DNA of 42,545 bases from assembly GCA_021732995.1 (NCBI GenBank), contig JAKFWA010000104.1:1-42545 (forward strand), given 5' to 3'. Source of the stretch: Planctomycetaceae bacterium (GTDB lineage Bacteria; Planctomycetota; Planctomycetia; Planctomycetales; Planctomycetaceae). Under the pieces are notes generated by a model. It saw only the letters and a program-made list of their open reading frames with translations. It ran no database searches and had not been told where the DNA came from. Of the stretch, positions 32,107 through 42,545 are shown one piece after another. Made by a program: the position numbers and the translations under genes. Position 1 is the first letter of the stretch; the number at the start of each line of letters is the position of its first letter.

Positions 32107-34341
32107 CTATTCGGCGACCGGTAGCTCCGGCTCTTCGTCGTCGAGCAGCATCACCGGTGAGCTTTCGTCGGACTCGGTATAAACCGTCTGTTCGATCGGG
32201 GCACCGAAGTCTTGCGGTGCTTCGTCACCTGCTTCCGCTGGCATCTCGGCGGCATCGCTCACTTCATACTCTTCTTCGTCGCCGAAGCGTTGCATGAAGC
32301 CAGCCTGTTCGGGTTGCGGACGCGGCACGTCATCATACGGTGCTTCCCGATTGCCGGACGGAACCGGTTCGGTATAGATCGCCCGACCATCGGCTTCCGG
32401 AATGTTCTGTTGATACTCGCCGTACGTCACTGGTTCTTCGCGATCGATCTTGTCATCCAGCCAGTTCAGCGGGACCTTCAGACGTTCACGCTCTTGAGCA
32501 TCCTGATACGCCTTCATCGGCCACAGATCTTCGGTCAGGTAGATTTCGTTGTAGTCCAGCAGCGATCCCTTCTCGTAGTGCACGTTACGAATCGCCAGGG
32601 TGTACTCGCACAAGCTGCGGTAGTAATTCAGTTCCGCATCCAGGAACGCCTGCTGAGTTCTCAGCAACAGGTCGAGCGAAGCCTTGTCCGCTTCGAACGC
32701 AGCCCGCACTGCATCCAGTTGTTCCACAGCGGCGATGCGGCGATCTTCGTTGGTTTCCATCACCGCATATGCACGGTTCATTTCCGAGACCGCGTTGCTC
32801 AACTGATGCACAACTTCGCGTTCCTGCTCAGCCAGCAGTATGCGGTCACGGCAGAGTTGCATTTCGGCATACTGCGTCGCAGCGGAAGCTCGACGAGCAC
32901 CGAGCGGATACGAGAATTCCAGGCCGACCTGCGACTCCTGGAAGTTGCCATCGAACATGTCTTCGACGGCATTATCAAACTGGCCAATATCCTGACCCTG
33001 ATCCAGCAGATCCTTGCCAAAGCCGCGGAAGCGGTAACGTCCGGCAAGATCCAACTGAGGCAACAGGAAGTTCTTGCTGGCGATTAATTCCTTTTCACGT
33101 CGCTTGATAATCCATTTCTGACGACGCAGTTCAGGGCGACGTTGCAGGGCTTCCACCAGCGATGAATCCCAATCAAAGACAACCTTGGCTTCGATCGGTT
33201 CATCCGCCGGGCGGAACAGTTTGCCGTCGTTAATCGGCAGGCCCATGATGAGCCGCAAGCGGCGTTCGGCAGTCATCACACCACCGATACCGCGGAACGT
33301 ACCACCGGCACTGCCGTTGTTGGTTTGCGTCTGGTCGGCCAGTCGACCGCTCAAGGCGTTCTGCACTTGATCCTGCAGACGATAATACTGTTCGCGAGCC
33401 TGAGCTTCTTTCTCAGCTTCACCACCCACGCGACTGGTCTGATACAGAGCATTGATCGCGTTCCACGTTTGCAGCGCGGTGTTACGAGCCGCCACTTTGG
33501 AGTCCAGATCGCGATAGGCGAAGTAGAGGTCCCAGTAGGCGTTCTCCACGTTACTGACGAAGTCGCGCACTGAACCTTCAAACTGAGCCAATGACACGTC
33601 GGTATTGATGCGAGCCAGCACGACACCGGTCATCACGCCGGGTACGTTGCCGGGACCTGCGATTCGCAGGAATTCGTTACCACCACCTCGCAACAACGGA
33701 TGGCGAGCCTGCAATTCGGCCATCGTTGTGAACGCGCTGCCGAAGAAGTTACCGGGAGCGTTGTTCGCGTCGTATTCCATCACGGTACGAGCCGTGAACT
33801 GTGTGCCTGTGGCGGATCGCTTGGCGATCTGGCTTTGAACGCTCAGGAAGTCCTGCACCAGTTGGCGGGTACCACCACCGGCGAACTGGTTGTTGATCGC
33901 CTTATCATTGTTTTCAAAGAACGTGGATGACGACACTGTGGCATCGAACTCGCTGAGCGCCGCGGCAACGCCGAAGCGTGGATCAAGTTCCTGCAGCGCG
34001 ACGTCGTAGGTCGAAGTGGCCGCACCGGGAGAACGCAGAATGAGTCCGCCCAGGTCTCGCATAACCTTCGAGGTCTGCAGAGCTGACCGCACGGCGTCCT
34101 GCAGCGTGAGGTATTCGAACTGGATGTCGTTTTCGTCCAGCACGGTCAACGGCTTGCGAGTCGACAGCAGTTGCGTGTTGAGCGGAGTTTCTACGTCCGG
34201 GTAATCGATCTTGGTCGATTGCGCCTGGTAGTAGCCCGGTGCATCGGTGTGCTTCGGTGCCGGACGCTGGAACCCGCAGCCGGAACCCACGACCGTCATG
34301 GCCGCGAGCGATGCTCCCATCCAGACTTTGAATCCGTTCAT
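32107..34341 (-). CDS. TolC-family outer membrane efflux protein
   Basis: From ATG 34341, which has CAGGA upstream, the protein has 744 residues. The N-terminus MNGFKVWMGASLAAMTVVGSGCGF is an export signal with a possible lipidated cysteine (GSGC; the lipobox is weak). Long coiled helices follow, in two similar halves typical of outer membrane efflux proteins: LTLQDAVRSALQTSK opens the first, and DWDSSLVEALQRRPELRRQKWIIKRREKELIASKNFLLPQLDLAGRYRF opens the second. The C-terminal 120 residues are acidic and proline-rich, an addition to the usual size of 450-500. It would form the outer membrane channel of a tripartite exporter. No inner-membrane pump or adaptor gene is adjacent. The frame to 34497 has no ribosome binding site. 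Confidence 0.87.
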   Translation of the reverse strand: MNGFKVWMGASLAAMTVVGSGCGFQRPAPKHTDAPGYYQAQSTKIDYPDVETPLNTQLLSTRKPLTVLDENDIQFEYLTLQDAVRSALQTSKVMRDLGGLILRSPGAATSTYDVALQELDPRFGVAAALSEFDATVSSSTFFENNDKAINNQFAGGGTRQLVQDFLSVQSQIAKRSATGTQFTARTVMEYDANNAPGNFFGSAFTTMAELQARHPLLRGGGNEFLRIAGPGNVPGVMTGVVLARINTDVSLAQFEGSVRDFVSNVENAYWDLYFAYRDLDSKVAARNTALQTWNAINALYQTSRVGGEAEKEAQAREQYYRLQDQVQNALSGRLADQTQTNNGSAGGTFRGIGGVMTAERRLRLIMGLPINDGKLFRPADEPIEAKVVFDWDSSLVEALQRRPELRRQKWIIKRREKELIASKNFLLPQLDLAGRYRFRGFGKDLLDQGQDIGQFDNAVEDMFDGNFQESQVGLEFSYPLGARRASAATQYAEMQLCRDRILLAEQEREVVHQLSNAVSEMNRAYAVMETNEDRRIAAVEQLDAVRAAFEADKASLDLLLRTQQAFLDAELNYYRSLCEYTLAIRNVHYEKGSLLDYNEIYLTEDLWPMKAYQDAQERERLKVPLNWLDDKIDREEPVTYGEYQQNIPEADGRAIYTEPVPSGNREAPYDDVPRPQPEQAGFMQRFGDEEEYEVSDAAEMPAEAGDEAPQDFGAPIEQTVYTESDESSPVMLLDDEEPELPVAE

Positions 34342-34809
34342 CGTGCCGTGTCCTGATCCACTAATAAGGACTTCGCTCCCTCCCGGAGCGAACAGGGCTC
34401 GCAGTCGAGCCCTCACTGACAGCAGAAACGTGGCGCAAAGCGGCGCGCTTCGACTGTACTCCCTCTTTAGATCGGACAATCCGCAGCATTCGCACAATCG
34501 TTTTTCGCGTTGCCTGCGGAATTACCGCTACAAATTAACGGCTTCCTGGAAGGTCTGAGTCATTGCTACTTGTTCGCTTAAGAACGCTGGTGTTCGTAAA
34601 GATCGCAAACGAAAGCTGAATGGCCATGGGAGGCAGGGAGGAAAAAGTTGCGGGTGACGCGATTCTGGAGCCTGCGAAACGCGAATCCAGTCGCTTCGAT
34701 CCTCACGTTTCCTGCGTTCTGTTCGATCTTCCGGTGCTGACGGGAGTTGTCGTACCATTCACTGGCGGGAACGCGGAGATCGATTGTTGGTTTTCGACAG
34801 GGATGTCAC
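34342..34809. promoter_or_regulatory. Divergent intergenic region at the head of the acyl cluster
   Basis: These 468 nt lie between the TolC-family gene (minus) and the PIG-L gene (plus), so promoters for both must be here. I see no convincing -35/-10 boxes, operator palindromes or riboswitch. No short gene is supported. Confidence 0.4.
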
Positions 34810-35475
34810 ATGAATGTGCTGGTGTTGGCTCCTCATCCTGATGATGAGGTTCTGGGCTGCGGTGGGGTGATCGCGCGGCATGCGGCGGCGGGTGACAACG
34901 TGTACGTGGTTGTGGCTACTCGCGGTCTCGCCGAACTGTATGCCGACGACCTCGTCGCGATCGTGCGACGAGAAGCTCTGAAAGCGCACGCGATTCTGGG
35001 TGTGAAAGAAACCAAGTTCTTCGACTTTCCGGCTCCGGCGCTGGATACCGTGCCGCGCTACAAGCTGGCTTCCACGATCGCCAAGGTGCTCACCGACTGG
35101 CAGATCGACACGTTCTATATCCCGCATCATGGTGACATTCACAGCGACCATTTTCATCTGCATCACGCGGCGCTGGTGGCGGCTCGACCGCTGGCTCATT
35201 GCCCGGTGCGACGCATTCTGGCTTACGAAACACTGTCCGAAACGGAATGGGCCCCGCCGCAAAAGGATGCCGTTTTCTATCCAACGGTGTTCATCGACGT
35301 TGCCGAACATCTGCAGAAGAAACTCGAAGCGATGCAGTGCTTTGCGTCCCAGGTGAAGCCGCCGCCGAACGCTCGTTCGCTGCAGAATATCACGGCACTG
35401 GCTCACTACCGCGGTGCGACGGTGGCCTGTCACGCGGCCGAGAGCTTCATGCTCATTCGTCAGATCGACCGCTGA
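34810..35475 (+). CDS. PIG-L family N-deacetylase
   Basis: The 221-residue protein is a zinc-dependent LmbE/PIG-L enzyme. MNVLVLAPHPDDEVLGCGG (metal and catalytic residues H9, D11, D12) opens it, and DIHSDHFHLHH (H111, H114) supplies the third ligand. Family members remove acetyl or other acyl groups from N-acetylglucosamine-type amino sugars or related small molecules. ATG at 34810 gives the canonical N-terminus; the frame extends upstream to 34747 without support. The gene opens a same-strand run with ACP, KASIII, SDR, acyltransferase and ligase genes, so it probably exposes an amine for re-acylation, or trims an intermediate. The substrate is unknown. Confidence 0.9.
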   Translation: MNVLVLAPHPDDEVLGCGGVIARHAAAGDNVYVVVATRGLAELYADDLVAIVRREALKAHAILGVKETKFFDFPAPALDTVPRYKLASTIAKVLTDWQIDTFYIPHHGDIHSDHFHLHHAALVAARPLAHCPVRRILAYETLSETEWAPPQKDAVFYPTVFIDVAEHLQKKLEAMQCFASQVKPPPNARSLQNITALAHYRGATVACHAAESFMLIRQIDR

Positions 35476-35564
35476 AACTCGCGTTGGCGAGTTTTGGCGC
35501 CTCTGTTAAAAGTCGAAAGCGGCTTTCCCAAAGTGTCTTCACCGAAGCAATGGAGTGCTTGGTT

Positions 35565-35801
35565 ATGGATCAGCAGACGTTCCTGTCGCTGTTGGATGAA
35601 CTGTTTGAAACGGATGCCGGAGTGATCACGCCAGAGACGGCGTTGAAGGAAATTCCCGGTTGGAGTTCGCTCACGTTCGTTGGCCTGATTGCGATGATCG
35701 ACGAAGAATGCGGCGTCACGTTGCCCCCGAACATCATTCTGAATTGCCGCACTGTCGGCGATTTGACCGCTCACGTGCTGCAGAAGCGCGCTGCGGCCTA
35801 G
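35565..35801 (+). CDS. Acyl carrier protein, cluster copy 1
   Basis: A 78-residue acidic carrier protein, MDQQTFLSLLDELFE at the N-terminus. The phosphopantetheine attachment serine is S35 in PGWSSLTFVGLI, where the usual aspartate before it is serine (SSL instead of DSL). A GGAG box nine nt before ATG 35565 fixes the start. The carrier lies 89 nt after the PIG-L gene and before KASIII, and it would hold the growing or transferred acyl group. A second carrier occurs at 38546. The SSL variant is common in secondary-metabolite carriers and may alter which phosphopantetheinyl transferase or partner enzymes it meets. Confidence 0.88.
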   Translation: MDQQTFLSLLDELFETDAGVITPETALKEIPGWSSLTFVGLIAMIDEECGVTLPPNIILNCRTVGDLTAHVLQKRAAA

Positions 35802-35829
35802 AGATTCACCAAGGCTGAGAGGCAAGTTT

Positions 35830-35885
35830 GTAGGGCGGACTATCCTGTCCGCCATCGTTTCGACGGACAGGGTTGTCCGTCCTAC
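35830..35885. repeat. Dispersed GTAGG-CGGAC palindrome, copy in the acyl cluster
   Basis: GTAGGGCGGAC (35830-35840) pairs with GTCCGTCCTAC (35875-35885) with one wobble, and each half contains its own GGAC/GTCC inverted repeat. It sits between the first ACP gene and KASIII. A near copy is at 39569-39617, and a half copy at 51-77. Confidence 0.85.
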
Positions 35886-35958
35886 TTGCCATGTCTGAGT
35901 TGGAGCGGGCGATTCCAATAGCGGCGCTGCCGCTGTTGTCATTCAGGGAGGGAGCGAC

Positions 35959-37062
35959 ATGGCAACGATGCAAGTTTCCGGGATTCGGATTGCGGGACTG
36001 GCTTCCGCCGTGCCCGATCAACTGGAAACGGTGGACGACGATGCGGCGCGATTTGGTCGCGAAGAGGCGGCCAAGATCAGTCAGAGCATTGGTGTCACAT
36101 CGCGGCGAGTTGCTCCCGCGCCCATCTGTGCTTCGGACCTCTGTCATGCAGCCGCTGAGAAGTTGCTGAACGACCTCGGCTGGGAGCGTGACACCGTTCA
36201 GGCGCTGATCTTCGTGACTCAGACGCCCGACTATCTCTCCCCCGCGACGGCCTGCACCCTGCAGTCTCGACTCGGTTTGAGCAAAGGTTGCGCGGCGTTT
36301 GATATCAGCCTGGGTTGCTCAGGATATGTGTATGGACTGGCCACTGCGGCGCAGTTCGCGAAAGGTCTCAGCAACGGCACTGACGGCTCGGGCCGTGTGC
36401 TGCTGCTGGTAGGCGACACGATTACGCGGGTGATCTCGCCACAGGATCGTTCGACGGTGCCGCTCTTCGGTGATGCCGGTTCAGCAACGGCTCTGGAATT
36501 CAATGCGTCGGCTGCTCCGATGAGCTTCGTGCTCGGGACGGACGGCAATGGCCGCGACCACTTGCTGATTCCGGCGGGTGGCTTCCGCACGCCGCGCACG
36601 GCAGCGACCGGCGAGCGAACCGCACGCGAGAATGGCAACATTCGTAGCGACGATGACCTGTTCATGAACGGCGCTGAAGTCTTCATGTTCACGCTGTGCG
36701 AAGTGCCAAGCCTCTTCAAAAATGCGACGCAGGCAGCGGGCTGGACGATCGACGATGTGGATGGCGTCATCATGCATCAGGCCAATTCGTTCATGCTCAA
36801 CCACCTGCGCAAGCGACTCAAGATTCCGGAAGACAAGTTCGTGGTGGCGCTCGATGGTTACGGCAACACGAGCTGCGCTTCGATTCCTCTGGCGCTCTCT
36901 GCGACCTACGCGAAGAAGGCCGATGAGTCGCGACGGCTGGTACTGGCTGGCTTCGGTGTCGGTTGGTCATGGGGCGGCGCTGCGGTCACCGTCGATAACG
37001 CCGTTCTGCCTGAAGTGGTCATCGTCCCTGGTCTGCCGGCTGTTGTGCGGGAGGCGGCGTGA
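35959..37062 (+). CDS. 3-oxoacyl-ACP synthase III (KASIII/FabH-like)
   Basis: The 367-residue protein is a ketosynthase III. The catalytic triad is C120 in [12 protein letters not shown]273 in [10 protein letters not shown] and N303 in [11 protein letters not shown], all intact, so condensation is expected. [23 protein letters not shown] and DAGSATALE are standard family segments. It is about 40 residues longer than housekeeping FabH. It would extend a CoA- or ACP-bound starter with malonyl-ACP. ATG at 35959 has a GGGAGGGAG site. It overlaps the next SDR gene by one nt, so expression is coupled. The position between two ACPs, a reductase and an acyltransferase points to a dedicated acyl pathway rather than general fatty acid synthesis. 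Confidence 0.93.
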
Positions 37063-37820
37063 TGCTGAATCCGCTCGACATGACAGGTCGGACGGTTCTC
37101 GTGACGGGAGCTTCGTCGGGACTGGGCCGCGAAGTCTGCGTGCTGCTGAGTGAACTGGGGGCCAAAGTGGTGCTGGTGGCTCGCAGCCCGGAACGGCTGG
37201 CCGAGACCGCCGCGCGGCTGTCGGGTACTGGTCATCGCATCGAAGCCTTTGACGTCAGTCAAGTGGACGCGATTCCGGAATGGATGAAGTCCATCGCGGC
37301 GCAGACCGGTCCTCTGTCGGGCGTGGTGCATGCGGCCGGAATTCATTTCACGGTGCCACTGCGAGTGCTGCAGCCCGCGAAACTCGATGACCTCATGCGC
37401 ATCAACTTCGGAGCCGCCGTCGCGCTGACGAAGGGCCTGCGTCAGAAAGGCGTGCGTGCCGAACGCACAAGCGTCGTGTACTTCTCGTCCGTGATGGCCG
37501 TGGTCGGTCGTCAGGGCGTTTCCGCCTACGCCGCCAGCAAGGGAGCACTGGTCTCGTTGGCGATGTCGCTGGCTCTGGAATTGGCCAGCGAAGGCGTGCG
37601 AGTCAACTGCGTGGCTCCCGGTCATGTGCGGACCGAAATGGCCGAAAAAGCCGAAGAGCTGCTGTCGGCAGAACAGATCAAGTCGATTGAAGACATGCAC
37701 CCGCTGGGTCTGGGCGAACCGCGTGACGTGGCGAACGCAGTGTCGTTCCTGCTGTCGGACGCGAGCCGCTGGATCACGGGGCAAACGCTGGTGATTGACG
37801 GTGGTTACACCATTCATTGA
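37062..37820 (+). CDS. SDR-family 3-oxoacyl-ACP reductase, cluster copy 1
   Basis: A 252-residue short-chain dehydrogenase. The cofactor motif TGASSGLG is at 15-22, HAAG (90-93) replaces the usual NNAG, the catalytic serine S143 lies in FSSVMA and the YAASK active site gives Y156 and K160. [16 protein letters not shown] is the normal FabG-type end. It probably reduces the 3-oxoacyl product of KASIII. ATG at 37062 overlaps the KASIII stop by one nt, and GGGAGG lies just upstream. A TTG/GTG three nt earlier is a less likely start. The acyltransferase gene follows 19 nt later. Confidence 0.91.
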
Positions 37821-37839
37821 ACGGATGCAGGATCGAGAC

Positions 37840-38523
37840 ATGACAGCGCGATTGCTCATCATCGGAGCGGGTGGCTTTGGCCGAGAGATCCTCGCCTGGG
37901 CAGAGGACGTCGTTCGCGCGACGCCGTCTCCCGAATGGACGATCGGCGGCTTTCTGGATGCGAATCCACAGGCGCTCAAGGCCTTCAATATCGACGTGCC
38001 GGTTGTTGGCGATCCGGCGAGCTATGCTCCGCAACCGAATGACCGCTTTGTGTGTGCCATCGGCGATCCGGCGACGAAGCTGCGAGTGTGTGAGGCTCTG
38101 CGCGGTCGTGGTGCTCAATTCATCAACTTGGTTCATCCCACAGCGCTGGTCGGCCCGCGCTGTCAGTTGGGGACCGGTGCCATCCTGTGTCCGTTCGCGG
38201 CGTTGACCGTCGATGTGACGCTCGGCGACTTCGTGACGTTGAACCTGCGAGCGGGCGTCGGGCACGACGTCCGTATCGGCGATGGCGCAACCTTGAATGC
38301 CTACTGCGACGTGACTGGAGCAGCGCGACTCGGCAAGGGCGTGTTCATGGGCAGTCATGCTGTCGTTGCCCCGAAGGCTGTCGTGGAAGACTTTGCTCGA
38401 ATTGGTGCTGGCAGCGTGGTTGTGCGGCGAGTCAAAGCTGGCTCGTCTGTCATCGGTGTTCCAGCAAAACGAATTGATTTTGATACCGTGGCCGCGCCCG
38501 CTGAGAGCGCAAAGGCCGCCTGA
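37840..38523 (+). CDS. NeuD-like hexapeptide acyltransferase
   Basis: The 227-residue protein has an N-terminal Rossmann-like domain, LLIIGAGGFGREILAWAED, as in NeuD/PglD sugar acyltransferases. A left-handed beta-helix of hexapeptide repeats then follows from about residue 95: HPTALVGPRCQLGTGAILCP, LGDFVTLNLRAGVGHDVRIG, GVFMGSHAVVAPKAVV and RIGAGSVVVRRV. The last HDVRIGDGATLN segment has the histidine used by these enzymes. They transfer acyl groups from CoA or ACP to the amine of nucleotide-linked amino sugars. ATG at 37840 has CAGGA seven nt upstream. The gene lies 19 nt after the first SDR and 22 nt before the second ACP, in the centre of the cluster. Confidence 0.88.
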   Translation: MTARLLIIGAGGFGREILAWAEDVVRATPSPEWTIGGFLDANPQALKAFNIDVPVVGDPASYAPQPNDRFVCAIGDPATKLRVCEALRGRGAQFINLVHPTALVGPRCQLGTGAILCPFAALTVDVTLGDFVTLNLRAGVGHDVRIGDGATLNAYCDVTGAARLGKGVFMGSHAVVAPKAVVEDFARIGAGSVVVRRVKAGSSVIGVPAKRIDFDTVAAPAESAKAA

Positions 38524-38545
38524 ATTATTAATGCAAGGAATTGCT

Positions 38546-38866
38546 ATGAGTTCACCTACTCGCGATCAGGTCGCCAATTGCGTACTGGCTGCAATTGATA
38601 CGCTCAATCCGCAACTGGAATCCGATCGACAGATCGAACGCAGCCTCACAGCGAAGTTGTTCGGTCGCGAAGCTCCGCTCGATTCGCTGGGACTGGTCAA
38701 TTTGATCGTCACGGTGGAAGAGCAGCTTTCTGACGATCTCGATGTGACGATCACGCTGGCGAATGAAAAAGCGATGTCGCGCCGCACGAGCCCGTTCCGG
38801 TCGGTCGATGTGCTGATCGACTTCATCTTGGAAATGCTCAGTGACGAGGCGAAGGCAGCGGCATGA
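38546..38866 (+). CDS. Acyl carrier protein, cluster copy 2
   Basis: A 106-residue carrier protein. The pantetheine serine is S47 in PLDSLGLVNLIV, the normal DSL motif, unlike the SSL of the first carrier. It is longer than housekeeping ACP, with an insertion before the last helix that reads TLANEKAMSRRTSPF. AAGGAA is five nt before ATG 38546. Its stop overlaps the start of the second SDR by 4 nt (ATGA). The distinct motif and length suggest the two carriers serve different steps or partners. Confidence 0.88.
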   Translation: MSSPTRDQVANCVLAAIDTLNPQLESDRQIERSLTAKLFGREAPLDSLGLVNLIVTVEEQLSDDLDVTITLANEKAMSRRTSPFRSVDVLIDFILEMLSDEAKAAA

Positions 38867-39564
38867 GCTCTGAACGCGTCATCGTCATTACAGGGACTCG
38901 CAAAGGCATCGGCCGGTATCTCGCCGAGAAGTATCTCGCAGCGGGAGATCGAGTCGTGGGATGCTCGCGCGACCCCAATGACCTGCAGCATGAGAACTAT
39001 CGGCATCACTGCCTCGACGTGGCCGACGAAGATGGCGTGAAGAAACTCTTCAATGCGACGCGCAAAGAGTTCGGGCAGTTGGATGTGCTCATCAACAACG
39101 CGGGCATCGCGTCGATGAATCATTCGATGCTGACTCCGCTGTCGACGATTGAACGCGTCTTGAGCACGAACGTGACGGGAACGTTTCTGTTCTGTCGCGA
39201 GGCCGCGCGGCTCATGCAGAAGAAACAATCTGGACGCATCGTCAACTTCGCAACGGTGGCCGTGCCCCTGAAGCTGGATGGCGAAGCGATCTACGCGGCG
39301 TCTAAAGCGGCGGTTGTCTCACTAACCGAGGTGCTGGCCCGAGAATTCGCTCCGCTCGGTATCACCGTGAACGCCGTCGGCCCGACGCCCGTGAAGACGG
39401 ACCTGATCCGCAATGTTCCCGAAGACAAGATTCAGGCCCTGCTGAACCGTCAGGCAATTCCCCGCTTCGGCGAGTACCGCGACGTTGAGAACGTGATCGA
39501 CTTCTTCATCAGTTCTGCCAGCGATTTCATCACCGGGCAAGTGCTCTATTTGGGCGGGGTGTAG
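38863..39564 (+). CDS. SDR-family oxidoreductase, cluster copy 2
   Basis: A 233-residue short-chain dehydrogenase. The cofactor motif TGTRKGIG is at 10-17 and NNAG at 78-81. The active-site tyrosine and lysine are Y144 and K148 in YAASK. The usual catalytic serine position reads NFATVAV, giving threonine 131, so the SDR triad is modified. It overlaps the second ACP by 4 nt, so it probably acts on a substrate held by that carrier. It may be a ketoreductase or a dehydrogenase; sequence cannot decide which. A palindromic repeat and the small membrane-protein gene follow. Confidence 0.9.
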   Translation: MSSERVIVITGTRKGIGRYLAEKYLAAGDRVVGCSRDPNDLQHENYRHHCLDVADEDGVKKLFNATRKEFGQLDVLINNAGIASMNHSMLTPLSTIERVLSTNVTGTFLFCREAARLMQKKQSGRIVNFATVAVPLKLDGEAIYAASKAAVVSLTEVLAREFAPLGITVNAVGPTPVKTDLIRNVPEDKIQALLNRQAIPRFGEYRDVENVIDFFISSASDFITGQVLYLGGV

Positions 39565-39568
39565 CTTT

Positions 39569-39617
39569 GTAGGTCGGACAATCCTGTCCGACAGCCGGAC
39601 AAGATTGTCCGGCCTAC
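39569..39617. repeat. Dispersed GTAGG-CGGAC palindrome, second copy in the acyl cluster
   Basis: GTAGGTCGGACAATC (39569-39583) pairs with GATTGTCCGGCCTAC (39603-39617) with one wobble, again with a GGAC/GTCC sub-palindrome in each half. It lies five nt after the stop of the second SDR. It is the counterpart of the copy at 35830-35885; the two bracket the five genes from KASIII to SDR2. Confidence 0.88.
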
Positions 39618-39660
39618 TTGTGACGTTCGCCCGCACGGTCCACTTGTCGTTCTCGAACCT

Positions 39661-39689
39661 GTCTTCACAGGATCGGGCAACTCTGAGAA
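39661..39689. repeat. 29-nt direct repeat, left copy
   Basis: This 29-nt stretch is perfectly repeated at 40356-40384, 695 nt away, with further similarity (13 of 19) in the next 19 nt, which end CTCACGCCTG in both. It lies before the small membrane-protein gene. No known insertion-sequence end or integrase is seen, but direct repeats flanking a single gene suggest duplication or insertion. Confidence 0.85.
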
Positions 39690-39819
39690 TCTGTGGCCCT
39701 CACGCCTGTGTTATGGCCGGTCTCCGACCGAGCCACAAGATGCGACCGCAGGTCTTCCGAAGAGACTGCGCGTGGCACAGGAGACCTCCGGTTACTGAGT
39801 GTGCAGTCAGGAAGTGATC

Positions 39820-40404
39820 ATGCAAGAGGAAACAGGACTGTGGCGATCGTTGGGTGACATCGTTGCATTCTCGGCTATTAACTTGGTCCTGATTCTGTTC
39901 AGTTTGATCGCTTCATTCGTGCTGGAAGAAACCACTTTTCATGTTTGTTTGTTCTCACTGCTGATTCTTGCATTTCTTTCACCAGAGTGGCGAATCAGGA
40001 AAGTGATCACGCAACAGGCAACAGAACGATGGCGATCATTGGGCATGATCGCCGCAATTTCGATTGTTCACCTGCTCCTTCATGACCTCTGCACCATCGC
40101 CCCAAACCTGTGGGTCCCTCTACACACAGATAATATATACGCCGTGGCAGAAGTTCGGATGTGGTGGTTCTTCACTCAGATCCTTGCATTCCCTTTGGGT
40201 TGGATGCGTGATCTTCGAACGCCGCACTTTAATCCATTGCTGGCACTAGTGCCGAACAGCGTCCTGTGGGGCACAACATTGTACTTCGCCTGCAGGACGG
40301 TCCATCGTTATTGCTGCGGTCGGTCAAAGAACAGCATTCAGCGACCCACCAACCCGTCTTCACAGGATCGGGCAACTCTGAGAACCTTCAGCTCTCACGC
40401 CTGA
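39820..40404 (+). CDS. Small multi-pass membrane protein of unknown function
   Basis: The 194-residue protein from ATG 39820 (AGGAAG upstream) has about four or five hydrophobic segments: AINLVLILFSLIASFVL, FHVCLFSLLILAFLS, MIAAISIVHLLLHDLC, WWFFTQILAFPLGW and LLALVPNSVLWGTTLYF. No family is recognised. The C-terminal 15 residues, SSQDRATLRTFSSHA, are encoded by the right copy of the flanking direct repeat, so the natural end may once have been elsewhere. Codon use and base composition look slightly more AT-rich than neighbours. It lies between the second SDR and the ligase and may be a passenger in the cluster. Confidence 0.65.
   Translation: MQEETGLWRSLGDIVAFSAINLVLILFSLIASFVLEETTFHVCLFSLLILAFLSPEWRIRKVITQQATERWRSLGMIAAISIVHLLLHDLCTIAPNLWVPLHTDNIYAVAEVRMWWFFTQILAFPLGWMRDLRTPHFNPLLALVPNSVLWGTTLYFACRTVHRYCCGRSKNSIQRPTNPSSQDRATLRTFSSHA
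40356..40384. repeat. 29-nt direct repeat, right copy
   Basis: An exact copy of 39661-39689. It lies inside the 3' end of the small membrane-protein gene, where it encodes the peptide SSQDRATLR. The same peptide is read in one frame of the left copy, which suggests that the left copy may be a remnant of coding sequence. Confidence 0.85.
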
Positions 40405-40466
40405 ACCGGAACGGTTCAGTAGTTCGCGGGCTTGTGATTTTGACGACCTTCAGAGGATGGAACCTC

Positions 40467-41819
40467 ATGACGTCCTGCATTGATTTCCTGCTGACCAGCT
40501 TTCGCTCACGCTCGGGTGCCGACGCTATTGTCTGGCGCGATCAGGCTTACAACTACCGTTGGCTCGCCGAACGTATCGGTCACTGGCAGGATTTTTTGAT
40601 TCACAATGAAGTCACGAGCGGCACTGTGGTTGCCCTCGAAGCGGACTTTTCGCCGAACGCCGTGGCTCTGTTCCTCGCCCTGGCGGAAGCCGGTTGCGTG
40701 CTGGTGCCGCTGACGTCCGCAGTCGCAACGAAACGTACTGAGTTTCTGGAAGTTTCTCAGGCAGAAATTTCGATTGCGATTGATACTCAGGACGACGTGT
40801 CGGTGAAGCGGTTTGAGGCCGTCGCTTCGCACGACATCTATCAAAAGCTGCGCAGTGAGAAGCGGCCGGGGCTGGTGATCTTCTCATCGGGTTCGACGGG
40901 CAAGAGCAAGGCGGCTGTGCATGACGTGGTGCCGCTGCTGGAAAAATTCAAGACGCCGCGTCACGCATTGCGCACAATCTCGTTTCTGCTGTACGACCAC
41001 ATTGGCGGTATCAACACGATGCTGTACACGCTGGCCAACGGCGGGTGCCTCGTGACGGTACAGGATCGCTCGCCAGATGCCGTGTTGCGAGCCGTTGATA
41101 AACACAAGGTCGAACTGCTGCCGACGTCGCCGACGTTCCTGAATCTGTGCCTGATCGGTGAAGCGTGGAAGCGACACGATCTCAGTTCACTGAAGACGGT
41201 GTCCTATGGCACCGAGCCGATGCCTGAGAGCACTCTACGCCGGTTCCATGAACTGTTCCCGCACATCAACCTGCTGCAGACTTATGGGTTGTCCGAAGTG
41301 GGCATCCTCAGATCGAAGTCACGCAGCAGCGATTCGTTGTGGGTGAAGCTGGGCGGCGACGGTTTTGATACTCGCATTGTTGACGGCATTCTGCAGATCA
41401 AAGCGCAGTCCGCGATGCTCGGTTACTTGAACGCACAAAGCCCGTTCACCGCCGATGGCTGGTACAATACTGGCGACCGCGTCGAAGTCGACGGCGAATG
41501 GATGCGCATCCTGGGCCGCGAGTCCGAGATCATCAACGTGGGCGGCGAGAAGGTTTACCCCGCCGAAGTGGAAAGCGTGATCCAGGAGCTGCCCGCCGTG
41601 GCTGATGCGGTAGTCATCGGCGTGAAGAACCCGATCACCGGCATGATGGTGTGTGCCCGAGTGCAACTGCGCGAGCAAGTCGATCAGAAGGCCTTTGTGG
41701 CCGAGCTGAAGGCTTACTGTCGTCAGCGCCTGCAGCCGTACAAGGTGCCGGTGAAGGTTGAGTTCATCGCCGAAAGCCAACACTCCGAGCGCTTCAAGAA
41801 GATGCGCCGCGGGGCTTAA
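40467..41819 (+). CDS. AMP-dependent acyl ligase
   Basis: The 450-residue protein is an ANL-superfamily adenylating enzyme. The AMP-binding loop is FSSGSTGKSK (139-148), the YGLSEVG motif precedes the adenine contact, WYNTGDRVEVDGEWMRILGRESEIINVGGEKVYPAEVE covers the hinge and A8 region, and the C-terminal subdomain ends KKMRRGA with a candidate catalytic lysine. The normal length is 500-550, so the N-terminal part is short. It would activate a carboxylic acid for loading on CoA or on one of the two ACPs. ATG at 40467 has AGAGGA upstream; the frame is open to 40266 but overlaps the previous gene. It follows the membrane-protein gene by 62 nt and lies 53 nt before the last, partial gene. Confidence 0.9.
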   Translation: MTSCIDFLLTSFRSRSGADAIVWRDQAYNYRWLAERIGHWQDFLIHNEVTSGTVVALEADFSPNAVALFLALAEAGCVLVPLTSAVATKRTEFLEVSQAEISIAIDTQDDVSVKRFEAVASHDIYQKLRSEKRPGLVIFSSGSTGKSKAAVHDVVPLLEKFKTPRHALRTISFLLYDHIGGINTMLYTLANGGCLVTVQDRSPDAVLRAVDKHKVELLPTSPTFLNLCLIGEAWKRHDLSSLKTVSYGTEPMPESTLRRFHELFPHINLLQTYGLSEVGILRSKSRSSDSLWVKLGGDGFDTRIVDGILQIKAQSAMLGYLNAQSPFTADGWYNTGDRVEVDGEWMRILGRESEIINVGGEKVYPAEVESVIQELPAVADAVVIGVKNPITGMMVCARVQLREQVDQKAFVAELKAYCRQRLQPYKVPVKVEFIAESQHSERFKKMRRGA

Positions 41820-41872
41820 TCGCCGCTACGATACCTGCAAGACAACTGTCACTCCTTAGCGAGTTCAAGTTC

Positions 41873-42545
41873 ATGCAGGATCAGGACAAAACTGGGTGGT
41901 CACGGCGTCAATTCTGGCTGACGGTGCTGGTGGTGTGGGGCACGTTTCTCGTGTACTCGTTCTGCCATGCGCCGATCCCAGGGGCCAATGAGCCGCATTA
42001 TCTGTGCAAAGCCAAGTACTACTGGCAGCCGGAGTGGTGCAACCGCGACCTGTTCCTGACGTCGTCCAATCCGCACCTGATGTTCTACGTCGTGGTCGGC
42101 TGGTTGGCTGAATGGTGTTCGCTCGACGTGATTGCCGTCCTCACTCGCGGCTTCGGTTACCTGCTGCTCGCGATTGGCTGGGTGCGGTTCACTCGCGTGC
42201 TGGCGGTGCAACCGGCGTTGAGCGTCGTCAGTGTCTGGCTGATGCTCGCGATGAATTCGGTCATCAGCCTGTCCGGTGAATGGCTGGTGGGCGGCATTGA
42301 GTCCAAAGTTTTTTCCTACGCGTTCGTGCTGTCCGGCTTAGCTGATGGCCTGCGTCACCGCTGGACTTTGACAGGATTGCAGCTCGGCCTGGCTGTGGCG
42401 TTCCATCCGCTCGTCGGACTGTGGAGCGTCATCGCGGCGGGTGCAGCAACGTTGTGGGAAGAGTGGCGAGCGGGTCGGCTTCTACTTTCGAGTTTCCTCC
42501 CCCAACCAAAAACTACCCTCGCCCCGGGCCACCGGGGAGAGGGGT
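41873..42545 (+). CDS. Multi-pass membrane protein, cut by the window end
   Basis: The frame starts at ATG 41873 and stays open to the end of the window (at least 224 residues). The first helix is FWLTVLVVWGTFLVYSF, followed by PIPGANEPHYLCKAKYYW, which resembles the first loop of planctomycete polyprenol-linked or unknown multi-pass membrane proteins. At least four more helices follow. The last part runs through a CCCTCGCCCC/GGGGAGAGGGG repeat (42516-42544), so the gene may be broken or extended there. It lies 53 nt after the ligase gene and is a candidate for the membrane step of the acyl pathway. Confidence 0.7.
   Translation, partial: MQDQDKTGWSRRQFWLTVLVVWGTFLVYSFCHAPIPGANEPHYLCKAKYYWQPEWCNRDLFLTSSNPHLMFYVVVGWLAEWCSLDVIAVLTRGFGYLLLAIGWVRFTRVLAVQPALSVVSVWLMLAMNSVISLSGEWLVGGIESKVFSYAFVLSGLADGLRHRWTLTGLQLGLAVAFHPLVGLWSVIAAGAATLWEEWRAGRLLLSSFLPQPKTTLAPGHRGEG
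42516..42544. repeat. Dispersed CCTCGCCCC/GGGGAGAGGGG element at window end
   Basis: CCCTCGCCCC pairs with GGGGAGAGGG around GGGCCACC with slight mismatch. It is related to the element at 19777-19817. It lies inside the open frame of the last gene and the window ends within it, so its full extent is unknown. Confidence 0.7.

Follow-up and report, generated by a model that had tools for sequence, protein, structure and literature searches.

Gene row of the window

The DNA analyzed here, a stretch of 42,545 nt referred to below as the window, spans contig C78 of a Planctomycetaceae genome (G000) from end to end, and a row of genes with predicted roles in amine exposure, short-acyl synthesis and acyl transfer lies just before the contig end at 42545. 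The row consists of a PIG-L de-N-acylase, an acyl carrier protein (ACP1), a 3-ketoacyl-ACP synthase III (KASIII), a short-chain dehydrogenase/reductase (SDR1), a NeuD-like acyltransferase, a second carrier (ACP2), a second reductase (SDR2), an unassigned open reading frame (ORF) and an adenosine monophosphate (AMP)-forming ligase, all on the + strand. Judging from the gene content of related loci, some of which carry the two parts separately, the row is a composite of two cassettes that have an ACP and a reductase apiece: cassette A (ACP1, KASIII, SDR1, and NeuD-like gene) and cassette B (ACP2, SDR2, and ligase, also called the triad). Genes were assigned from ORF calls together with Pfam and NCBIfam, with 20 window proteins scanned, including ten upstream ones:

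34810..35475, + strand: PIG-L/LmbE-family de-N-acylase, candidate amine-exposing enzyme (PF02585, 1.7e-24, 87 bits against a cut-off of 28)
35565..35801, + strand: ACP1, cassette A (PF00550, 3.8e-9; Ser35 in 14/14 rows)
35959..37062, + strand: KASIII of the VioS-like kind, cassette A (Pfam/NCBIfam; C120, H273, and N303)
37062..37820, + strand: SDR1, FabG/VioR-like 3-oxoacyl reductase, cassette A (Pfam/NCBIfam; Ser144/Tyr157/Lys161 in 16/16 rows)
37840..38523, + strand: NeuD/PglD/VioB-type hexapeptide N-acyltransferase, cassette A (TIGR03570, 179 bits against a cut-off of 161)
38546..38866, + strand: ACP2, putative divergent carrier protein, cassette B (Ser47 and helix model; without Pfam match)
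38863..39564, + strand: SDR2, FabG-like reductase, cassette B (Pfam/NCBIfam; Tyr144/Lys148 in 82/82 rows)
40467..41819, + strand: AMP-forming acid:carrier ligase, cassette B (PF00501, 6e-37, and PF13193)

The first-pass annotation of this DNA described nine same-strand genes coupled by overlaps of 1 and 4 nt. Strand and placing are right, and the number nine is reached only when the unassigned ORF (39820–40404) is counted. The overlaps are real (KASIII/SDR1, 1 nt; ACP2/SDR2, 4 nt), but elsewhere the row is broken up by distances of 89 bp (PIG-L/ACP1), 157 bp (ACP1/KASIII), and 902 bp (SDR2/ligase), the last two of which hold a strong dispersed hairpin. SDR1 has an alternative GTG start at 37059. 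Promoter and terminator scans do not exceed shuffled sequence, with 0 promoter sites (mean of shuffles 2.1) and 6 terminators (mean 7.4).

Residue conservation was counted in alignments of relatives, near-copies included. In PIG-L, each H/D position of the HPDDE and HxDxHxDH motifs is conserved in 38–40 of 40 rows. The protein shares its family and metal-binding motif with BshB1, diacetylchitobiose deacetylase, and TT1542, but its scores fall well short of the cut-offs for BshB1 and MshB; the bacillithiol deacetylase BshB1 is ruled out (72 bits against an NCBIfam equivalog cut-off of 182.5). The intact C120/H273/N303 triad that had been reported for KASIII is confirmed, with the Cys and His found in 21/21 rows and the Asn in 20/21 (rows >44% identity, window and near-copies included). 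A housekeeping FabH is rejected for this gene, which in the tree stands outside the main block formed by 17 FabH rows of related genomes; a second KASIII of G000 lies on contig C10. For the NeuD-like protein, a profile of 7 sequences finds VioB (7txp, 6.6e-37) as its best PDB match, and His142, which we take to be catalytic from PglD, is present in 13/13 rows. The catalytic Ser position of SDR2 is occupied by Thr in 74 and by Ser in 8 of 82 rows. The C-terminal Lys of the ligase, presumably the catalytic residue, is kept in 84/85 rows (position 447 of the 453-residue query).

The window ACP2 has no Pfam match, and PP-binding (PF00550) is reached in 2 of 29 family members at E ≤ 0.01. Its ORF nevertheless looks like a carrier protein by motif and predicted fold: it carries a DSL motif, with Ser47 in 83/83 aligned rows, and a structure model from 29 sequences (predicted local distance difference test score 80.6) places helices at 6–23, 47–65, 74–77, and 87–105, corresponding to the four ACP helices. 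Ser47, the predicted phosphopantetheine site, is the residue with which helix II of the four-helix fold begins in this model. The top two matches of the fold search are ACPs, with weak E-values (0.08 and 0.5).

Two cassettes and PIG-L in related genomes

A contig search with four ligases returned 489 relatives, and the counts that follow describe the best 80 loci kept from these, a nonrandom sample. An SDR2 match is found in 78 of them and an ACP2 match in 75; the triad is contiguous, i.e. all three genes lie within 250 bp, in 68 loci and has the window order in 65. In the remaining twelve, one or two matches are absent, in several cases at a contig end, or the gap is longer. Altogether 19 phylum names are represented, with three loci unnamed. 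Within our phylum sample the ligase is rare, being found at 1e-90 in only G000 and G271 of 392 genomes.

The genes that follow the ligase are varied, and many of them encode enzymes that consume acyl thioesters. A PseH-like gene lies directly 3' of it in 7/80 loci by sequence cluster, and all 4 of these that were scored exceed the PseH cut-off. For example, the triad of Alteromonas sediminis (L095) is flanked by PseG and PseH, PseB, C, F, and I lie upstream of it, and all six pse genes pass their NCBIfam cut-offs. Elsewhere the ligase is followed by hexapeptide proteins (L115 and L058), by AAC(3)-like proteins (L054 by Pfam; L053 below the cut-off), by KASIII (L055, L061, and L067), by nonribosomal peptide synthetases (NRPS) rich in condensation domains (L120 and L128 by Pfam; L102 and L129 by similar starts), or by ketosynthase-first polyketide synthases (PKS; L079 by Pfam, L124 by a similar start). 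In G055, the triad precedes a glycosyltransferase, a MocA-type oxidoreductase, and DegT. This variety of PseH, other acyltransferases, KASIII, NRPS, and PKS suggests that triad B supplies one special acyl-ACP to many acceptors.

A second ACP-SDR set of this kind, with its ligase, had been regarded as unrecognized. It is not: beyond its relatives in many phyla, the same annotations occur in the polar flagellar islands of Aeromonas group II, where orf1–orf3 are an ACP, a 3-oxoacyl-ACP reductase, and an AMP-dependent synthetase, with a liposugar role only suggested (PMC7874193). The likeness is judged by annotation. In those islands luxE, luxC, and pse genes accompany orf1–orf3, whereas the 20 window proteins scanned include no pse-type gene and the genome has no NeuB match. 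Judged by titles and abstract openings, mostly outside subscription journals, the literature yielded no test of the triad's product, and the Aeromonas paper alone looked relevant to the triad or to PIG-L with acyl cassettes.

Several further observations concern the triad loci. Polysaccharide deacetylase genes lie near the triad in 13/80 loci by sequence cluster (e.g. L100:318-1298 and L064:2990-3862, with PF01522 in both that were checked), so that a deacetylase again stands beside an acyl cassette. An acetolactate-synthase-like thiamine pyrophosphate (TPP) enzyme adjoins the triad on the opposite strand in L042 (G055):3846-5744. A TPP-type gene, sfmB, is required for Shewanella flagellin modification according to PMC3765264. 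We considered Shewanella sfmABCDE as the triad and rejected it: besides a reductase and a TPP enzyme, the operon encodes a synthase of the NeuB type, a methyltransferase, and a ligase of the ATP-grasp type (PMC3765264). On a Rhizobium plasmid, an SDR2 relative lies beside an adenylate-forming enzyme.

The search for the gene set in other planctomycetes, a check set beforehand, finds that it recurs with variable order. Cassettes A and B occur together in L061 (Planctomycetia; ACP2-SDR2-ligase-KASIII-ACP1-NeuD), in L055 (Planctomycetaceae, cut at both ends; SDR2-ligase-KASIII-ACP1-SDR1), and also in a gammaproteobacterium, L067 (ACP2-SDR2-ligase-KASIII-ACP1-SDR1-methyltransferase-KASIII). Overall, KASIII relatives are present in 13/80 triad loci, with 14 matches over 1.17 Mb of sequence, each of them ≤3.7 kb from the ligase and sharing its strand. 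Among Chloroflexi, L105 holds PIG-L, a PglD-type gene, KASIII, AcpS, SDR2, ligase, ACP2, and FabD; AcpS and FabD are also present in L099 (cut at its start), and L106 has PIG-L, KASIII, SDR2, ligase, and ACP2, with AcpS and FabD not seen there. Given AcpS and FabD, ACP-dependent acyl assembly is the likely function of the Chloroflexi loci that hold them. The KASIII of L105 and L106 are only 38–40% identical to that of the window and fall on the tree side of the housekeeping block, a placement that carries a long-branch warning. On Azospirillum plasmids, KASIII relatives lie near nonulosonic acid or sugar genes, and their rows are included in the trees of cassette A genes described below.

For cassette A and PIG-L we used orthologue thresholds of 1e-75 (KASIII) and 1e-45 (PIG-L), with ClpC, M19, and DegT identities in the relatives' loci taken from Pfam. 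KASIII passes in 4 of 59 close genomes (G000, G031, G001, and G026) and in 13/170 family genomes, and a PIG-L orthologue is found in 23/170. Cassette A lies between a ClpC-PIG-L pair and an M19 dipeptidase gene in G031 and G461, and between PIG-L and the M19 dipeptidase gene in G460. The same locus is found without the cassette in G457 (ClpC-PIG-L-dipeptidase) and G459 (PIG-L-dipeptidase), and the locus is present with and without cassette A within one genus. In G001 the order is ACP1-KASIII-SDR1-NeuD-PIG-L, with PIG-L last, and in G026 it is ACP1-KASIII-SDR1-NeuD-KASIII-DegT. PIG-L is a resident gene of the family, and it adjoins a KASIII in three arrangements: the window/G031 type, the G001 type, and the Chloroflexi type with a different KASIII.

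The trees place the window differently. In the PIG-L tree it groups with G001 (88/93, short of starred support), and in the KASIII tree with G031, G460, and G461 (100/98); a window-G001 KASIII clade is rejected by an approximately unbiased (AU) test that was made after the tree had been seen (P = 0.033). The NeuD tree tends toward the KASIII grouping with support short of the star, and the SDR1 tree does not settle the grouping. The conflict between the PIG-L and KASIII trees indicates that cassette A probably joined PIG-L more than once.

Two other neighborhoods of PIG-L orthologues were recorded. Distant NeuD-like matches (27%) lie near the orthologue on the opposite strand, without other cassette genes, at L171 (G007):9576-10202 and L186 (G495):7471-8118. 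In genus g318 (L173–L175), the orthologue stands between a formyltransferase-like gene before it and an amidohydrolase gene after it, with Pfam for L174 only; this is perhaps another N-acyl exchange pair.

Predicted acyl transfer and its alternatives

One of the nearest known systems is the viosamine island of Pseudomonas syringae pv. tabaci, which holds acp, vioS (a KASIII), vioR (a reductase), and vioB (an acyltransferase), and whose sugar bears a 3-hydroxy-1-oxobutyl group, giving an N-(3-hydroxybutyryl) amino sugar (PMC3927599). Mutants in vioA, vioB, and vioR are described there as lacking the N-(3-hydroxybutyryl) sugar, and vioS and acp are named by homology (PMC3927599). Cassette A has the same four kinds of gene, i.e. 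carrier, KASIII, 3-oxoacyl reductase, and VioB-type N-acyltransferase, compared by enzyme kind and not with the P. syringae sequences. Within the row, the KASIII has its Cys-His-Asn, the ACP and 3-oxoacyl reductase are dedicated, and the acyltransferase is of the VioB/PglD type. The viosamine island obtains its amine from the aminotransferase VioA and also has VioM and VioT, whereas the window has PIG-L and the second carrier-reductase-ligase set. No sugar aminotransferase (VioA/DegT) is present among the 20 window proteins scanned, the contig stopping at 42545; a DegT gene is present in the G026 locus. By this analogy, carrier-bound short-acyl synthesis followed by N-acyl transfer by a NeuD/VioB-type enzyme is supported for the row.

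From the computed gene identities, conserved catalytic residues, two conserved cassettes, and repeated pairing, we infer what every enzyme does, PIG-L included, and which acid and acceptor are used, as follows. In cassette A, KASIII would join a short acyl-CoA (coenzyme A thioester) to malonyl-ACP1, SDR1 would reduce the product, and the VioB/PglD-type enzyme would transfer the acyl group to a sugar amine, as proposed for N-(3-hydroxybutyryl)viosamine. In cassette B, the ligase would load a free acid on ACP2 and SDR2 would adjust it; as a guess, acetoacetate might become 3-hydroxybutyryl. PIG-L probably frees the amine, standing where other loci have an aminotransferase. The last step would resemble that of PseH, since both would N-acylate a nucleotide-linked amino sugar, although PseH is a GNAT enzyme and the window enzyme a hexapeptide one of the NeuD/VioB type. 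A nonulosonic acid is an improbable acceptor and was rejected, because NeuB has no match in G000 with a search that was positive in 9/14 control genomes.

The first-pass annotation had proposed one short-acyl N-decoration cluster. A known island with the same kinds of genes agrees with this, but there are two cassettes, and a single nine-gene pathway as the default is rejected since they lie on separate contigs in G001. We give about an even chance to the reading in which two neighboring, self-sufficient makers of short 3-oxo- or 3-hydroxyacyl-ACP provide the acyl groups for an amide bond on an amino sugar. The acyl swap proposed earlier for PIG-L and the cassette is plausible from recurrent neighborhood, not from a fixed operon: the two are adjacent in 5/23 genomes with PIG-L (G000, G001, G031, G460, and G461), but in the other 18 no cassette was seen alongside, with six of these read for only ~1.5 kb or less on each side and others cut by contig ends.

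The strongest alternative, to which we give a substantial though clearly less than even chance, makes PIG-L a bystander, i.e. a resident deacetylase where the cassette happened to land, with the amine coming from an aminotransferase elsewhere. G457 and G459 have PIG-L at the usual position but lack the cassette, and none was seen beside it in those 18 genomes; other contigs of G000 encode four DegT proteins of nearly full length, and the DegT-bearing cassette locus belongs to a genome, G026, with no PIG-L match at 1e-45. A chance landing is harder to reconcile with PIG-L adjacency in three separate arrangements, one of them with a different KASIII, and with the distant NeuD-like gene near PIG-L in G007 and G495.

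On a serial route, which we regard as unlikely, the ligase would load the acid on ACP2, SDR2 would reduce it, and KASIII would extend this starter on ACP1, after which SDR1 would reduce again and the NeuD-like enzyme would transfer the longer acyl group. This would account for the tight loci L055, L061, and L067, where KASIII starts 31–71 bp past the ligase match and an ACP1-like gene follows, and for L061, where SDR2 itself is the only SDR1 match and one reductase may serve both parts; the window also has a single N-acyltransferase for two ACPs. Loci with A alone or B alone are accounted for by two separate acyl makers: G031 has cassette A without B (the ACP2 search was negative), no KASIII is present in the available DNA of 67/80 triad loci, and the two PglD/NeuD-type genes of L061 would fit two parallel products. 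Parallel synthesis is slightly favored over the serial route.

That the ligase, ACP2, and SDR2 serve a lipid or small secondary metabolite instead of a glycan is improbable: triads do precede NRPS genes (four loci) and ketosynthase-first PKS (two loci), but no NRPS or PKS is found among the window proteins scanned, PseH-like genes and, in more loci, other N-acyltransferases follow the ligase, and the G055 triad leads into the glycosyltransferase, MocA-type, and DegT genes named above.

Several results weigh against two side-by-side acyl makers that, with PIG-L, exchange a sugar acyl group. Cassettes A and B are on different contigs in G001, and G031 has A with no ACP2 match; PIG-L mostly occurs without a cassette in view, the triad sample is nonrandom, and the AU test is post hoc, as given above. 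No NCBIfam ligase model reaches its cut-off with the ligase among the 25 best of 102 models. In L130 and L056 the gene next to the ligase on its 3' side matches no Pfam family, and in L064 it is a polysaccharide deacetylase. Finally, no glycosyltransferase is found among the ten upstream proteins scanned, the contig stopping at 42545.

A bolder version, which we think rather improbable, joins these elements. In it, the triad would be a plug-in acyl-starter kit moved between phyla, with PseH, NeuD/VioB, KASIII, NRPS, and PKS as its users; in the window it would prime the KASIII cassette while resident PIG-L opens the amine, and one acyl group of a surface sugar would be swapped for a made-to-order one. 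The triad reaches 19 named phyla with a carrier mostly missed by Pfam. Its acyl group may occur in the glycans of flagellin, in surface sugars, and perhaps in products of NRPS and PKS, and the PIG-L pairing makes N-acyl exchange on sugars open to test.

Repeats and other features of the row

Three features within the row are placed outside the pathway, the third of them probably so:

35827..35888, + strand: dispersed palindromic repeat in the ACP1-KASIII gap (RNA fold of 35825–35890, -40.7 kcal/mol, z -8.4)
39566..39620, + strand: second copy of the dispersed palindromic repeat (RNA fold, -37.9 kcal/mol)
39820..40404, + strand: unassigned ORF in the SDR2-ligase gap (without Pfam or NCBIfam match)

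The palindromic repeat is ~55–60 bp long, and its copies at 35827 and 39566 can be aligned with each other. It has many near-identical copies in G000 (best 40 of 238 candidates scored), and the 902-bp gap has 50 matches in the genome, itself included, mostly to this repeat. A 30-bp direct repeat at 39660 and 40355 brackets the unassigned ORF, which has no counterpart in the compared relatives' loci; in G001, of the same genus as G000, the SDR2 and ligase matches are only 77 bp apart. We therefore rejected the ORF as a pathway gene, given an insertion-like gap, no family, and no counterpart.

Positions 39709–39803 are part of a second dispersed repeat, 80–87% identical to four other sites in G000. 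On the other side of the row, a TolC-type outer membrane efflux protein (OEP) is encoded at 32107–34497 on the - strand, divergent from PIG-L.

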